DNA of 64,000 nucleotides. It comes from Acidobacteriaceae bacterium (GTDB lineage Bacteria; Acidobacteriota; Terriglobia; Terriglobales; Acidobacteriaceae). The notes under the pieces were generated by a model, which saw only the letters and a program-made list of their open reading frames with translations, was not told the DNA's origin and ran no database searches. The stretch covers positions 1-64,000 of the forward strand of contig JANXUR010000097.1 of the NCBI GenBank assembly GCA_025356095.1, read 5' to 3'. How positions within the stretch are numbered: position 1 is the first letter of the stretch; every line of letters starts with the position of its first letter. This document shows positions 31,162-38,384 of the stretch, in pieces. The translations under genes were made by a program, and so were the position numbers.

Positions 31162-31434
31162 GATGGACGTTCCCCGCCTGACGTTTTCCGACACTCTGGC
31201 ACAAGCTGCCCCTCTAGTCTAGGGCTACATCGCGTTAGATGCTATTCCAGCCGCCACCGCCTGCCATCATTCCCGGTGCCTCAGTTTCGGGATTTTCCAG
31301 ATAGGGGTGGCTAGTCAGGCAATCCACCCACCCGGTCGCCCGCCGCTGACACGACTGCCTCCCGCCGATTACACTATCCAACGGATTGCTTTCGCCTTAA
31401 ATTTGCGGATGTGTTTTTCTTTGGAGGCTGCTCA

Positions 31435-33630
31435 ATGCGCCGTCTGTTTGCTGTTTTCGTGCTGTTTGCCCTCGTCTTACCTGTCGCTTCACTGAATGCC
31501 CAAACTTCCCCCAAGCGTCCCCTGACCTTTGATGACCTGATGGCGCTGAAGCGTGTGGGCGAGCCCAACGTCTCGCCCGACGGCAAATGGGTGCTCTACC
31601 AGGCGACCGACGTGAACCTGGACGCCAACACCAAAACCACGCACTTGTGGATTGTCCCGCTCGATCCCAAAGGTGGGGGCGAGTCGCGCCAGCTCACCAC
31701 GGGCCCCGGCGAAAGCGGGCCCAAGTTCTCGCCTGACGGCAAGCAGGTGCTGTATCTCTCCTCAAAAGAAGGCGGCCAGCAGATTTGGCTGGCGCCATTC
31801 GATTCTTCCGCCGGCACGCTTGGCGATGCCCACAAATTGACCTCCTTCGCCACCGAGGCCGATGGCGCTATCTGGTCGCCTGACGGCAAGAACATTGTCT
31901 TCGTCTCCAGCATCTATCCCGAGTGCGACAAGGCAACCGACCCCGCCGCCTGTAACGCCAAGAAGCTCGACGAAGTGGAGCACTCCAAGGTGAAGGCGCA
32001 GGTTTGGACGCGCCTTGTCTATCGCCACTGGGATCACTACCTGAACGGCCAGCGCAGCCACATTTTTGTCGTCGCCAGCGATGGTGCCGGCGCGCCGTTA
32101 GACCTGACACCCGGTGACTACGATGCGCCTGTCTTCTCGCTTGGCGGGCAAGACTATGCAGTTTCCCCGGACGGCAAGGAGCTTGCCTACGCCTCTAACC
32201 ACGAGATCGTAGAGATGGCCAGCACCAACAACGACCTGTGGCTGGTGCCCATCACTGGCGGCAAGGCACACAACATTACCCCATTTAATCAGGGGTCAGA
32301 TTCATCCCCGGTCTATTCGCCCGACGGCCACTACATTGCTTACAAGGCGCAGTTCCGCCCCGGCTATGAAAGCGACCGCTTCCGCTTGATTTTGTTCGAC
32401 CGCACCACGGGCAAGCACATCAGCTTAACTGAAACTCCGAAGACTTTCGATCGCTGGATCGGCGGCATCACTTGGTCGCTGGATTCCAAGAAAATGTATT
32501 TTACCGCTGAGAACAAAGGCGAAAACCCAATCTATCAAGTTGCCATTCCTACCGGCGAACTCATGAACGGCGATGGGGGCTACCAGTGGCCGGTAACCTC
32601 GCAGTGGCCGCAGCAGTTGGTTGGCGGGTTCAATGACGCCGTATCGGTCACGCCCGATGGCGCAACGCTGGTCTTCAATCGCATGGCGATTGCCCATCCC
32701 AACGAGATCTATCGCGCTCCGCTGGTTTACTCGCAGTGCCGCATGGCAGAGCTGGAGCCGGGTTCCTACGACCGCGCGGCCTGCCTGATGAGCCGGGGCG
32801 AAGCCATCACCCACGTGAACGATGCCATTTTTGCTGGAATCGAAATGCAGCCGCAAGAATCCTTCTGGTTCACCGGCTCAGAAAATGCCAAGGTGCAAGG
32901 CTTTGTGCTGCGTCCGCCGAATTTTGACGCCAAAAAGAAATATCCGGTCAAGTTCCTGATTCACGGTGGCCCGCAAGGCGCTTGGGGGGACGACTGGAAC
33001 TTCCGCTGGAACCCCCAACTGTTCGCTGCCAACGGATATGTGGTGGTGACCATCAACCCGCGCGGCTCCACCGGTTACGGGCAGAAGTTTATTGACGACA
33101 TCAACGGCGACTGGGGTGGCCGCGCCTACGAAGACCTGATGAAGGGCTTAGACCACGCCGAAGTAAAGTATCCGTTTATTGATAAGACGCGCGAATGTGC
33201 GCTTGGTGCCAGCTACGGTGGCTACATGATCAACTGGATCCTCGGCCACAGCGACCGCTTCCGGTGCCTGGTGTCGCACGACGGCATGTTTAACGCCGAG
33301 TCGGCCTATGGCGCCACCGAAGAGCTCTGGTTCAACGAGTGGGAGTTCAAAGGCCAGCCTTGGACCAACCGCGCGCTCTACCAGAAGTGGTCGCCACACA
33401 ATTACGCGGCGAACTTCAAGACCCCTACGTTAGTCATCCACGGCCAGCGCGACTACCGACTCGATGTGGCAGAGGGCTTTCAGTTGTTTACTACTTTGCA
33501 GCGCAGAGGCGTGGAATCGAAGATGCTTTACTTCCCCGACGAAGGCCACTGGGTGCTCAAGCCGCAAAACTCGCGGCTCTGGTACCAAACTGTGAACGAC
33601 TGGGTAGACCAGCACACCAAGCCACGTTAG
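31435..33630 (+). CDS. S9 family prolyl oligopeptidase-like peptidase, exported
   Basis: This encodes 731 residues with a signal peptide (MRRLFAVFVLFALVLPVASLNAQ); TTGGAGG lies 7 nt upstream of ATG 31435. Residues of about 30-440 form a WD40/TolB-like beta-propeller with repeated SPDGK motifs. The alpha/beta-hydrolase domain carries HGGPQGAWGDDW (oxyanion region), the nucleophile in GASYGGYMINW near residue 591, Asp in HGQRDYRLD near 672 and His in DEGHWV near 704. This is the dipeptidyl aminopeptidase/acylaminoacyl peptidase (S9C) type, likely periplasmic and degrading peptides. Confidence 0.94.
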   Translation: MRRLFAVFVLFALVLPVASLNAQTSPKRPLTFDDLMALKRVGEPNVSPDGKWVLYQATDVNLDANTKTTHLWIVPLDPKGGGESRQLTTGPGESGPKFSPDGKQVLYLSSKEGGQQIWLAPFDSSAGTLGDAHKLTSFATEADGAIWSPDGKNIVFVSSIYPECDKATDPAACNAKKLDEVEHSKVKAQVWTRLVYRHWDHYLNGQRSHIFVVASDGAGAPLDLTPGDYDAPVFSLGGQDYAVSPDGKELAYASNHEIVEMASTNNDLWLVPITGGKAHNITPFNQGSDSSPVYSPDGHYIAYKAQFRPGYESDRFRLILFDRTTGKHISLTETPKTFDRWIGGITWSLDSKKMYFTAENKGENPIYQVAIPTGELMNGDGGYQWPVTSQWPQQLVGGFNDAVSVTPDGATLVFNRMAIAHPNEIYRAPLVYSQCRMAELEPGSYDRAACLMSRGEAITHVNDAIFAGIEMQPQESFWFTGSENAKVQGFVLRPPNFDAKKKYPVKFLIHGGPQGAWGDDWNFRWNPQLFAANGYVVVTINPRGSTGYGQKFIDDINGDWGGRAYEDLMKGLDHAEVKYPFIDKTRECALGASYGGYMINWILGHSDRFRCLVSHDGMFNAESAYGATEELWFNEWEFKGQPWTNRALYQKWSPHNYAANFKTPTLVIHGQRDYRLDVAEGFQLFTTLQRRGVESKMLYFPDEGHWVLKPQNSRLWYQTVNDWVDQHTKPR

Positions 33631-33664: not shown

Positions 33665-36562
33665 CTACTGCAGCACTAGCACCGTAGCTACGGCGCTGTT
33701 TCCGCTGGCGAGCGCGGCAAAAACCTGCACCTGTACCGCTCCCCACCCGGATGTGAGCGCTGGAGTCATGGTTACCAGCCCATTCACGTCAGAGGTCAGC
33801 GTCTGGGTGGTCGCCGACACAATCACCGGCTGAGTCTGTCCCGGTTCCAGTGGCCGCGTCACAATCGTTTGCACTGTGACGCTTGCCCCCTGTACCGGGT
33901 CAACCGGGCTCTGTGAGTCGGTCACCAAAAAGCTGACGGCGGGCGCGGGCAACCCCACCAGTACCGCTGTGCCATCACCGGATGCGGTCAGCAGTCGCAG
34001 CGTATTGGCCTTAGAAGCCTGCAAGTCAAAGGTCTGGCAGGGCGATTTGCCATCCACGCATGCCACTACCTGCACCTCGGCGGCCAGCGCCGTCAGCGTA
34101 AGGTTGCTGGTGGAGTAGCCGTTAACATCGGTATTCACGTTGGCTGCGCTCAAGGTTCCTGCGCCCAGCGACAGCGAAAAACTGACCTTACGCCCGCTCA
34201 CCGCCTTGCCGCTGGAAAGCACCCGCGCCGTCAGCGGCACCGTGATCGTCGTCCCGGCGGCAACCCAGCGCAACTGGTTGGTGAGTGAAATATCCAGGGA
34301 CGACGAAATCGCCGAGAGCGTGCCTTGCACAAAACTGGGCGTGGAATAGACCTGCGGGGCCAGCGAAGCATTCAGCGTGTAGGTGCCTATGCCTGTGGGC
34401 GTCATAACCGAACTGACTTCGCCATTGGGGTCGCTGGGCACCGAACAGGTGGTGGCGCCTTTACAGGCGGCAAACTGCACACTGGCCGAAGAGGTAGCGG
34501 GCGACGCGCTCAACTGCACTGTGGCACCCGGCACTGGAGTCACGCCATCGGCCTGTACCACGCGTACCCGGAAGGGATTCTGCGACACCCCGCCCACTGG
34601 CGTGGCCGGGTTGCCGCCTTGCAGCAGGAGGACCACATCGTCCGGTGCGGCTCCTACAGTGAGGCCACCCGAAATCACCGAAACCGCCCCGGTGAGCGGA
34701 TCGGTGAGAGAGACATCTGAGATGCCATCTGGCAGGGCTGGCGCTATGGCCGCGATTTGATTGGCATGGACGGTGAGCATTCCGGCATTCGCCGCGCCCA
34801 TTGCAACTGTGGTCCCCTCGCGGAAGCCGAGGCCACGAATGGTCAGCAAACTGCCTCCCAGCGCCGATACGCGCTGGGGCTGCACGGTGTCGCCATAAAA
34901 AATGCGAGCCCGGTAACGATAGTCAGGCCTGCCATCGCCACGCAGGTCCGCCACGCCCAGGATAAAGCCCGAATCACCAAGAATCAGCGCGTCGAGCCGG
35001 GTGACGCCCAACTCGGCTGAGTTAAACGGCTGCCCCTCAAACGCCGGGGGCGGCGACCCTGCAACTGACCCGGCATCCCAAATACCAATCAGCGGCATGG
35101 TCTTGTCTAGAGTTGGGTTACCATTCGCGTCGAGCGCCGTTACCAGCACGCTGAGCGAGTTGTTGGCATGGCCGCTGAAGCTGTAAAAATCGGTGTCGCC
35201 ATAGCCGCTCAGCAACGCAGTCCAATCGCCGCTGCCGGGCACGACGGCGGGCGAATCGAACGAGCTCGGTTCCCGCAGGTCCGTGGCATTGGGCGCGCTG
35301 CCCTGCATCAAGATGTCTTGACTCGTGGTTTTGCCGCTGGTGATGGTGACGTTAATCGGAACAAACGTGCCCGCTGGTGCCACTTGGCCAAATTCGTAGG
35401 GGCCAAGGCCGAAGGTACCGGTGAAGAGGGGGTTTATGGCTTCCACACTCAGTTGATAGGTTGCCGTGGTGCCGCCAGTCGGGAACTCCAGCCCGCTCAG
35501 GTCGAAATAGCCTTCGAGCGAGGTGTCATTGGAGCCGAACTGGTCGTAGCGATTGCCGCTGGGGTCGGTGTCGCCGCTAATTGGATTGCCCACGTTGCCC
35601 GCGAAGCGAAATCCAGAGATGCTGGAGGCGGCATATTGGCTCGAAGGCAGCCCGCTGGTCGAGTCAATCCATCGTGCAATCACGTTGACGCCCTGCATGG
35701 GCTGTGCTTTGTTACCGTTCGCGTCTAAAAAATAGACCGAGCCCTGCAGCGACCCGGTAGCGCTGCCCGTCTTGGGATAGAGCCGCGCCAGCGCCGCACG
35801 GTCATCCATATTCGGCACGCCGCTATTGCGGAGGCAGGTCGTCACCACGGTACAGGTGGGGTCCAGCGGATGCATCAGCGGGAAGCCGGAATAGTCCTCC
35901 GCCTTGGGTGGCGGAACGCCCGTGAGCACGTTGCCATTGAGTTGGGACCAGTCGAGTCCTAACGCACGGCCCAGCGTGCGCACCAGGTGATACTTCAAAT
36001 CTGCCAAGCTGGCCGAAGTCGCGGCACAGCGGCCATTAATTACCACCAGCGCGTGCGCATAGTGGCCGTCGGTGGTGTAAGCGTCCGGTGCGCCGTAGGT
36101 CGAGTTCGTAAGGCAGAAGCTGGGGTCACTGGCACCAATGCCCAGCAGTGCCTCGGTCACGGCTCCATCCTGGTCGTACACCACGGCGATTGGCTTGTTG
36201 GTTGCGGTGGGCAGAATGTCGGCTGGCAGAGTCAGCCCGTTGACGGTGGTGACGTTAGTGCCATTCACGTCCTCGGCCAGCGAGCCGCCATAGGTCGCGC
36301 CCAGCGAGGCGGTGGTCACCCCGGTCCACTGACCGAGCGCGGAGGCTACAAAGGAGTTGGCGGCGGTCTGGTTCAGCACCGGGCTAAGGTCGCCTTGGTC
36401 GGTGTAGTAGGTGACGTTGCTGGCCGCCCACGTGAGCGGTGTGCCGGTGCTGGAGCGATTGAAGTAGCTGACCCCCGCCACTGTCAGCGGGCCGCCGCCA
36501 AAAGCCGGGGAGGCGACCACCAGCAGGGCGAACGCAACAACGGGTATGCCGATCCCCTTCAT
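33665..36562 (-). CDS. Large exported protein: degenerate matrixin-like domain, IPT/TIG and Ig-like repeats
   Basis: This encodes 965 residues with a signal peptide (MKGIGIPVVAFALLVVASPAFG). The first 290 residues have the layout of acidobacterial matrixin-like metalloproteases, but the expected HExxHxxGxxHS reads RTLGRALGLDWS, so all three zinc His and the catalytic Glu are gone. A carboxypeptidase-regulatory-like beta domain follows (about 275-410), then an IPT/TIG domain (about 560-650, GGSLLTIRGLGFREGTTVAMG) and three or so Ig-like beta domains (655-965). It is probably a surface binding or adhesion protein. Its ATG overlaps the stop of the upstream 222-residue gene by 4 bp. Confidence 0.8.
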   Translation of the reverse strand: MKGIGIPVVAFALLVVASPAFGGGPLTVAGVSYFNRSSTGTPLTWAASNVTYYTDQGDLSPVLNQTAANSFVASALGQWTGVTTASLGATYGGSLAEDVNGTNVTTVNGLTLPADILPTATNKPIAVVYDQDGAVTEALLGIGASDPSFCLTNSTYGAPDAYTTDGHYAHALVVINGRCAATSASLADLKYHLVRTLGRALGLDWSQLNGNVLTGVPPPKAEDYSGFPLMHPLDPTCTVVTTCLRNSGVPNMDDRAALARLYPKTGSATGSLQGSVYFLDANGNKAQPMQGVNVIARWIDSTSGLPSSQYAASSISGFRFAGNVGNPISGDTDPSGNRYDQFGSNDTSLEGYFDLSGLEFPTGGTTATYQLSVEAINPLFTGTFGLGPYEFGQVAPAGTFVPINVTITSGKTTSQDILMQGSAPNATDLREPSSFDSPAVVPGSGDWTALLSGYGDTDFYSFSGHANNSLSVLVTALDANGNPTLDKTMPLIGIWDAGSVAGSPPPAFEGQPFNSAELGVTRLDALILGDSGFILGVADLRGDGRPDYRYRARIFYGDTVQPQRVSALGGSLLTIRGLGFREGTTVAMGAANAGMLTVHANQIAAIAPALPDGISDVSLTDPLTGAVSVISGGLTVGAAPDDVVLLLQGGNPATPVGGVSQNPFRVRVVQADGVTPVPGATVQLSASPATSSASVQFAACKGATTCSVPSDPNGEVSSVMTPTGIGTYTLNASLAPQVYSTPSFVQGTLSAISSSLDISLTNQLRWVAAGTTITVPLTARVLSSGKAVSGRKVSFSLSLGAGTLSAANVNTDVNGYSTSNLTLTALAAEVQVVACVDGKSPCQTFDLQASKANTLRLLTASGDGTAVLVGLPAPAVSFLVTDSQSPVDPVQGASVTVQTIVTRPLEPGQTQPVIVSATTQTLTSDVNGLVTMTPALTSGWGAVQVQVFAALASGNSAVATVLVLQ

Positions 36563-37227
36563 GGCTGCCGCTCCACGTGGCGTAGTTCCTTGCGAATCTG
36601 GCGACTGAAGGCTGCGGCGTCAATCCGTTGGGTTCGGCCGATACGAGACGGCAGATCCGATGGCGGATCCAGAGGGTCGGTGGCAGGCTGGCTGGCGAGC
36701 CATCCGGCAGGAAGCTGGGTGAAACCACGCGAATCCACTCGCAGGCTGCCGGAGTTGGCGATTTCGCTGGTAATGCCCGCTGAATTCGGGCGATACAACA
36801 TGGCAAACACCTGCTCGCCGATTCGATAGTGCGGATGCGTCAGCCATGGGCCTGCCCATTCGCGGATGGTCAGCATCTGAGCACTGCGCACACCGCGAAT
36901 CCCGTAGCTTACGCGGAAGGTGATCTCAACCTGTGCTGGAGTGCCTGCTGAGGTGCCGATGGGAGTGCCGGCGGGGGGTAGCGTCGCCGGATGCACACTC
37001 ACCACCGTGCCGCGGAAGATGAGGCCAGCTTGCTGCACCCACCGCCGTACCACCGGGTTTAGCCGAATAGGCTTGCTTACGATTAACTCGCCAGCGAAGG
37101 CGCGAGGTGTCGGCAGCAAGATGCAGAGCATCGCTGCGACGGCCAGCATTTTTGTGGGAAGCGCTCTTGCGGCCAGCGCTCTGCCGCAGGCACACGACCG
37201 CCAATGATTCGCCGATGTAAAAAGCAT
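36559..37227 (-). CDS. Exported protein coupled to the degenerate matrixin-like protein
   Basis: This encodes 222 residues. A hydrophobic stretch (MLAVAAMLCILLPTPRAFAG) about 26 residues in looks like a signal peptide core, so the start may be the internal ATG at 37149. The mature part has beta-rich segments (GLIFRGTVVSVHPA, VEITFRVSYGIRGVRSAQMLTIREWAGPW, YRIGEQVFAMLYRP) similar in style to small acidobacterial exported proteins of unknown role that precede matrixin-like genes. The 4-bp ATGA overlap with the downstream gene shows translational coupling. Confidence 0.68.
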   Translation of the reverse strand: MLFTSANHWRSCACGRALAARALPTKMLAVAAMLCILLPTPRAFAGELIVSKPIRLNPVVRRWVQQAGLIFRGTVVSVHPATLPPAGTPIGTSAGTPAQVEITFRVSYGIRGVRSAQMLTIREWAGPWLTHPHYRIGEQVFAMLYRPNSAGITSEIANSGSLRVDSRGFTQLPAGWLASQPATDPLDPPSDLPSRIGRTQRIDAAAFSRQIRKELRHVERQP

Positions 37228-37451: not shown

Positions 37452-38384
37452 TTATTCACCGGCTGCCGTCACGGTGGCTGATTCCGCAACATCTTCTACT
37501 GCCGATAGCTGCGCCCCGCCCAAAAGCAGCAGTCCAGAAAGAAATGCCCAGAACAGAATCGTCACCGACAGCGAGAACGGGCCGTACACTTCCTGAAAGT
37601 TGAGCCAAGGCAGTGCCAGAATGTAGGCATACTTCATCACTTCCCATAGCAAACCGGTAATAATGGCCGCAGGCATCACTTGCCGGGCGGCAACTTTACC
37701 ATTGGGCAGCAGCCAGTAGATCAAGAAGAAGATCGCAATGGAGGCGGCGATGGCCGATATCTTCATTACAATCCAGGTGATTGCACTGACCACAATGCCG
37801 CCGTCATTGCCGCCAAGAATCCACTGAAACAGCGTCAGGTTGCCCGCTGTAAGGGCAATGGAAAGCAGTGCCAGCATCCCGCCGCCCGCGGCCAGTCCGG
37901 TGGAGACTAGCTGATTCATCAGATACGAGCGGTTGCGCGGAAATCCCCACACCCGGTTCAGCGCCACTTCCAGCGGCAGAAAAATTCCTGAAGAGGTAAA
38001 CAGCAGAATCCCGATGGATAGCAGTTGCGTGCCCCGGCGTGCGCTCACCATGGCGGTGAGGTGGCGAATTACGAACTCCTGCCCGGCAGGCAGGTAGTCG
38101 CGCAGCAGATCGCCCACCACCTGTTCCATCGCCGGGGAATGAAAAACCCGGCGGCACAGCAGCAGTATCACTACCACAAAGGGAAAGAACGACAGCAGCG
38201 CGTTGGCCGCCACTGAAAAGGCGTAGGTGTGAACCTCAGTTTCTTTCAGGTAGTGCAAGGTCTTAAGAAAGGAGCCATCGGGAAACTCGGCCAAAAAACG
38301 GCGCAGCAGGCGCAGGGCGACCGCCCACGAGCTTTCCGCTGGCAGCGAAGGCAGCAGAACTGGCTGGGATTTGGGGTATTTCAC
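37452..38384 (-). CDS. YihY/UPF0761 (BrkB-like) family inner membrane protein
   Basis: This encodes 310 residues from a GTG start with six hydrophobic segments. AYAFSVAANALLSFFPFVVVILLLCRR near residue 60, IGILLFTSSGIFLPLEVALNRVWG and LYGPFSLSVTILFWAFLSGLLLLGGAQLSAV match conserved blocks of the YihY/BrkB family. The family was once called RNase BN in error; its true role is unknown, although links to the outer membrane and lipids have been proposed. It is transcribed alone. Confidence 0.9.
   Translation of the reverse strand: MKYPKSQPVLLPSLPAESSWAVALRLLRRFLAEFPDGSFLKTLHYLKETEVHTYAFSVAANALLSFFPFVVVILLLCRRVFHSPAMEQVVGDLLRDYLPAGQEFVIRHLTAMVSARRGTQLLSIGILLFTSSGIFLPLEVALNRVWGFPRNRSYLMNQLVSTGLAAGGGMLALLSIALTAGNLTLFQWILGGNDGGIVVSAITWIVMKISAIAASIAIFFLIYWLLPNGKVAARQVMPAAIITGLLWEVMKYAYILALPWLNFQEVYGPFSLSVTILFWAFLSGLLLLGGAQLSAVEDVAESATVTAAGE

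Follow-up and report, generated by a model that had tools for sequence, protein, structure and literature searches.

Pseudo-proteases, and gene pairs that join a metzincin to a TIMP-like protein, are both already known. In Listeria, the two adjoining genes of the Mtz-Tim pair encode a TIMP-like lipoprotein and a secreted metzincin; the metzincin is catalytically active and is considered to cut the TIMP-like protein, and the pair has been linked to phage or mobile elements (PMC8235301). The authors of that report stated that they knew of no prior record of bacterial proteins similar to TIMPs (PMC8235301). Inactive ADAMs have lost their catalytic residues and conserved their fold (PMC11266112), as is predicted for the protein described below. 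The portion of that source used here covers ADAMs and M16 enzymes; it contains no bacterial matrixin, and the word "matrixin" is absent from its text (PMC11266112). The pseudo-proteases in the literature found are mostly from animals and plants. Among the matches listed in the open-access literature, none concerned a dead bacterial matrixin or the matrixins of Acidobacteria, and none described such a dead, conserved matrixin of bacteria together with a partner of NTR/TIMP fold.

The locus analysed here shares with Mtz-Tim a secreted metzincin-type gene adjoining a gene of TIMP-like predicted structure, a likeness by description (PMC8235301). Unlike the active Listeria metzincin (PMC8235301), the metzincin of the window and of its dead clade has no catalytic residues; other acidobacterial pairs, found at intact loci, retain them. 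Unlike the association of Mtz-Tim with phage or mobile elements (PMC8235301), the acidobacterial pair is spread across Acidobacteriota. In this phylum, a bacterial clade keeps a dead matrixin, and intact relatives permit a direct comparison.

The window, the whole stretch of 64,000 nucleotides that was analysed, comes from an Acidobacteriaceae genome of 3.53 Mb (G000:C61). On its minus strand, a gene with an ATG start (33665..36562) encodes an exported protein of 965 aa, here called the pseudo-matrixin and characterised from the ORF list, Pfam and an AlphaFold2 model. A signal peptide, judged by eye from the sequence (about residues 1-22; 36497..36562, minus), is followed by a matrixin-like domain (residues 22-265; 35768..36499, minus) delimited by profiles and by the predicted order of strands and helices, by further beta domains, and by TIG and Big_1 Ig-like domains. 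The start of the mature part, GGPxxVAG, is conserved in relatives, and most of the protein consists of the region after the matrixin-like domain. The IPT/TIG and Ig-like domains of the original prediction were recovered by Pfam: TIG at residues 559-622 (34697..34888, minus; E 9e-9) and Big_1 in two stretches, the best at residues 760-840 (34043..34285, minus; E 1e-10). Pfam matched no peptidase family in the protein. The AlphaFold2 model without the signal peptide comprises 944 residues, with a mean pLDDT of 81.8 and a pTM of 0.56. In the region N-terminal to TIG, where Pfam assigned no family, the sequence RGDGRPD (residues 541-547; window 34922-34942) was observed to be invariant in 17 of 17 aligned full-length sequences.

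The original prediction placed a replaced zinc motif at about 35,945-35,990, with all three His and the Glu gone and the G-x-x-G framework kept. The exact site was found to be 35945..35980 (minus; residues 195-206), where the sequence, hhalign and residue counts show RTLGRALGLDWS in place of HExxHxxGxxHS; none of the three His ligands or the catalytic Glu is present there, and the columns of the zinc motif required of M10, HExxHxxGxxH, read RTLGRALGLDW in the window protein. The prediction had also named a second HExxH as a possible source of zinc ligands, and neither HExxH nor HxxxH occurs elsewhere in the 965 residues, which contain six His in total. The Met-turn LMHP (residues 229-232; 35867..35878, minus), located by residue counts in the dead and intact alignments, is retained with its Met (FPLMHP, Met230), as is the domain end DDRAALARLYP. 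Matrixins and MMPs (PF00413, M10), the intact acidobacterial relatives and the window protein have a homologous domain with the Met-turn Met and the G-x-x-G framework in common, whereas in the window protein the zinc ligands and the catalytic Glu are replaced by fixed new residues. Among dead sequences, the Met-turn Met is present in 131 of 133, and the residue directly after it is His in 128 of 133, as against 0 of 37 intact sequences.

Homology to matrixins was established through the intact relatives. An hhalign comparison of 21 dead with 33 intact sequences gave E 3.8e-39 over 220 columns, pairing RTLGRALGLDWSQLN with HEIGHLIGLDHAQIN, then the Met-turn and then the DDxA..LYP end. Searched against whole genomes, the dead-only profile also retrieves relatives with HExxHxxGxxH in the same columns; because of this and of the hhalign score, the motif register goes beyond chance. 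Pfam Peptidase_M10 (PF00413) was matched at E up to 1 by all 33 sequences of the intact alignment A3, the best at 1.6e-10 (A3 omits seven of the 40 matches as short or divergent). Against the PDB, the A3 profile placed MMP-1 on top (2e-5), followed by MMP-2 and alkaline protease (4e-5), a score to which the motif region contributes a large share. The M10 model detected none of the 21 dead domains, and searches of Pfam, NCBIfam and PDB sequences that used only the dead protein or its profile yielded no significant peptidase match, MMP-9 reaching no better than E 1.4. In the AlphaFold2 model, a long helix runs into the dead motif, and the order of strands and helices is what we take to be that expected of a matrixin. 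Whether the fold might be unrelated, a question raised with the original prediction, was addressed through these profiles and the predicted secondary-structure order; Foldseek and VIA searches of the full-length model covered, among the matches listed, the Ig-like part alone. On the evidence of the profiles, the domain is homologous to the matrixin catalytic domain across its whole length.

The distribution of the domain was followed in three sets of genomes. With the whole protein as query, 24 of 61 genomes gave a match at E up to 0.001, including the genome of the window and at least two (G013, G055) with weak partial matches. With the N-terminal-domain profile A1, built from 21 rows that are all dead, matches at E up to 0.1 were obtained in 117 of 200 family genomes and in 99 of 396 phylum genomes, in both cases dead and intact together. 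Motif state was read in the fetched matches alone; among these, the weaker ones carry HExxHxxGxxH in register, for example HEFGHLIGLDHSQIN, and belong to other families and to paralogues inside the family. Close relatives in named records are assigned to Acidobacteriaceae, Terriglobales and Candidatus Sulfotelmatobacter. The named loci, namely the 80 best of 207 matches to the dead profile, are dead in 80 of 80 cases, which follows in part from the way they were chosen, with the dead profile as query and the lower-ranking matches dropped.

The acidobacterial homologues with and without the motif, which the original prediction had proposed to seek, were both obtained. After removal of duplicates, contained sequences and pieces shorter than 190 aa, 172 distinct domains remained, 134 dead and 38 intact (L111 is counted as intact, its motif being intact despite an alignment insert). 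Catalytic residues are kept in an all-or-none manner: none in 132 domains, one in 2 (L198 keeps a His, L191 a Glu) and four in 38, with no domain keeping two or three. Because the motif itself was the criterion for sorting dead from intact domains, its absence from the dead set is a matter of definition; information comes instead from the lack of intermediates and from a tree built without the motif columns. In the dead set, position 195, the column of the first His, is Arg in 134 of 134, Gly198 is retained in 132 and Gly202 in 134, in agreement with the predicted G-x-x-G framework, and position 205 is Trp in 127.

The tree comprised 38 intact sequences and 46 of the 134 dead ones, namely that of the window plus roughly one in three of the others. 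The dead/intact labels need a single change, and the dead clade has an SH-aLRT of 100 and a stem of 1.37. With midpoint rooting, it is nested among intact sequences of the same family and of another family. The tree is a quick one and the midpoint root serves for drawing only; because of this root, the reading as a loss rather than a gain rests on general knowledge of matrixins. For 84 pairs of dead domains with 82-98.5% identity, which are not independent, dS was defined in 80, and the median dN/dS was 0.082 (maximum 0.288).

Ten positions (Ser60, Glu97, Asp115, Asp160, His170, Cys179, Tyr191, Arg195, Trp205 and His231) reach 93% in the dead set, whereas the corresponding columns of the intact set show these residues seldom or never. 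Cys150 and Cys243 are also fixed in the dead set, and the intact set scarcely fills those columns. Six of the ten, Glu97, Asp115, Asp160, His170, Arg195 and His231, occur in 128 of 133 to 134 of 134 dead sequences, as against 0-2 of 37-38 intact ones. As judged from these alignments, the loss of the zinc site is accompanied by a fixed new constellation of residues. The original proposal of a pseudo-protease is borne out at this level, by a dead clade under purifying selection that is homologous to intact matrixins: a conserved pseudo-protease under selection is strongly supported, because there is one dead clade, dN/dS is low and the dead-specific positions are near-invariant. The loss of the motif across a clade, and the partner gene described next, go beyond what was predicted; the partner gene is new here.

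Directly upstream of the pseudo-matrixin gene lies a gene of 222 aa (36559..37227, minus); its stop codon TGA and the start codon ATG of the pseudo-matrixin gene share bases (ATGA). As characterised from the ORF list and a predicted model, its product is predicted to be secreted and to have an NTR/TIMP fold. Against Pfam and PDB sequences, this partner gave no convincing match; Agrin NtA was touched by one of 38 members at E 0.17, which may be chance. The model of the mature part has a pLDDT of 83.9. Foldseek ranked the PCOLCE NTR domain on top (E 5e-3), then the C3b C-terminal domain and TIMP-1, with no match reaching E 0.001, and also listed the OB-fold proteins SSB, PriB, RPA70N, HIN and POT1. 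Among the 50 matches listed by VIA, for which 990 of the Foldseek chains were aligned, all were of NTR type (complement C-terminal domains, agrin NtA, PCOLCE NTR, N-TIMP-3), with Z from 8.7 to 7.3, best values of 7 to 8 being usual for models without a clear Foldseek match. The complement ranges presumably correspond to the C345C domain. The predicted model points, with moderate strength, to an NTR-type OB barrel with a terminal helix, that is, an NTR/TIMP fold. TIMP-1, TIMP-3, agrin NtA, the PCOLCE NTR and the complement C-terminal domain are the best structural matches (VIA Z 7.3-8.7); in contrast to these TIMP/NTR proteins, to which no sequence match was found, the window partner has no Cys in its mature part. 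TIMPs, natural inhibitors of the tissue-remodelling proteases to which the pseudo-matrixin is related, chelate the protease zinc by their mature N-terminal Cys. This residue is absent here, because the mature window partner (residues 46-222) contains no Cys at all, and a TIMP-like docking is for that reason an analogy.

The two-gene unit, with the NTR-fold gene first and the matrixin gene second, was observed in the window and in most relatives, and also with intact matrixins across the phylum. In the 200 family genomes, the partner profile gave 88 matches in 78 genomes, and 84 of these matches immediately precede a matrixin-domain match in the same orientation. A matrixin-domain match is present in 76 of the 78 partner-bearing genomes (odds ratio 75, Fisher p 4e-22, uncorrected for relatedness). 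The partner also lies upstream on the same strand in 65 of the 80 named loci (best 80 of 207). A profile iterated over loci also detects the partner in 35 of 39 intact-matrixin loci, with the strand shared in each tabulated case, and the pairing is therefore probably older than the loss of the motif. Partners from dead loci and from intact loci are homologous by profile comparison (hhalign E 1.6e-29), and at one locus (L097/L232, G186:C112) a single frame of 922 codons fuses an NTR-type domain, matched by the partner profile at E 1e-27, to an intact matrixin.

Exceptions to the pairing were found in both directions. Four partner matches have no adjoining matrixin: one lies at a contig end (G113), one at a gap (G013) and two are apparent orphans. 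The orphan NTR-fold genes are at L228 (G122:C358) and L229 (G101:C79). The locus at G013:C193 was considered as the remnant of a decayed pair and rejected, as it contains an unread stretch. A locus with two adjoining intact matrixin genes, each immediately preceded by an NTR-fold gene, was also observed (L088, G024:C21). Conversely, the partner profile found no match in 41 of the 117 family genomes that have a matrixin-domain match. Among these is a sub-branch that lacks the partner in all 10 of its tree rows. At nine of ten partner-less loci examined, the next upstream gene, on the opposite strand, resembles a thioredoxin reductase by eye. Among the 33 dead sequences with no partner match in their locus, some of them near contig ends, Glu97, Asp115, Asp160, His170 and Arg195 are present in 33 of 33, His231 in 29 and Trp205 in 28. 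The dead-specific residues are retained without the partner and therefore do not serve the NTR-fold partner alone; the dead matrixin must also have a role independent of it.

A conserved dead branch beside a TIMP-fold gene suggests an enzyme recycled into a binding partner. The best explanation, which we hold with moderate confidence, is that the pseudo-matrixin descends from a protease/TIMP-like pair and serves as a secreted binding module, with both the binding and the loss of catalysis presumed. The ancestral unit, by analogy with Mtz-Tim, would have been a secreted matrixin with a TIMP-fold companion. In an ancestor of the Acidobacteriaceae/Terriglobales branch, the zinc ligands and the catalytic Glu of this matrixin, an M10 metzincin, would have disappeared, apparently in a single event and presumably in this direction, and purifying selection on a new fixed set of residues would have followed. 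The Terriglobales branch would thus have lost cutting while a binding face was retained and rebuilt. The two proteins would meet outside the cytoplasm, where the NTR/TIMP-fold protein may dock on that side of the matrixin domain which once held the active site. The TIG/Big_1 stalk may present the complex, or its binding face, at the cell surface; any further ligand of the pseudo-matrixin would be conjectural. The domain was originally proposed to be "used for binding", and a candidate partner encoded directly upstream makes this plausible. The dead matrixin of the window and most of the intact relatives examined adjoin a predicted TIMP-fold gene, which makes binding between bacterial TIMP-fold proteins and matrixins testable, as well as the role of such a pair after proteolysis has been lost.

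Other explanations have to be weighed against this binding module. The six charged or His positions Glu97, Asp115, Asp160, His170, Arg195 and His231 could form a new ligand or metal site, in which case the protein would be no passive scaffold but a neofunctionalised receptor, or even an enzyme of another kind. Their near-invariance in the dead set, against 0-2 of 37-38 intact sequences, is what such a site would leave, and the 33 partner-less dead sequences keep five of the six unchanged and His231 in 29; the predicted strand register would also set Asp160 and His170 opposite each other in one hairpin. The Cys and salt bridges are, however, equally explicable as structural, and we regard a re-wired site taken by itself as unlikely. 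A joint reading, in which the protease/TIMP-fold pair became a non-proteolytic two-component binding system with both a new ligand site and the former inhibitor-like neighbour as binding partner, is put forward tentatively. The site it would use (Glu97, Asp115, Asp160, His170, Arg195, Trp205 and His231) belongs to that joint reading and is proposed with the same reserve. If true, intact pairs, one fused pair and the dead pair would line up as a natural series within one phylum.

It is also conceivable, and in our view quite improbable, that the dead domain is purely a structural spacer: an Ig-like surface protein would retain it only as its N-terminal fold, and the NTR gene would merely be carried along by synteny. 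The region beyond the domain makes up most of the protein, the neighbourhood is partly syntenic (an S9 peptidase in 30 of 47 loci), and 41 of the 117 family genomes with the domain have no partner match, all of which a spacer would accommodate. The clade-specific near-invariant residues and the low dN/dS of the domain argue against it, however, and local synteny is insufficient to explain why the NTR gene is found beside intact matrixins in many families of the phylum and, once, fused to one. The odd motif itself, and nothing further, would speak for a sequencing error, a pseudogene or a misalignment, whose probability we consider negligible in view of a dN/dS of about 0.08, a profile alignment at E 3.8e-39 and listed matches free of internal stop codons. 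The 134 distinct dead sequences rule out a sequencing error or single-genome oddity. Among these readings, the secreted binding module remains the one we prefer.

Further genes were observed around the pair. On the plus strand, a convergent gene for an S9 prolyl-oligopeptidase (window 31411-33630) can be called syntenic, since a homologue lies within 30 of the 47 named loci with full flanks. Upstream of the pair, a BrkB-like membrane protein (window 37452-38384, minus; Pfam E 3e-38) is encoded, with a homologue in 15 of the 47 loci.
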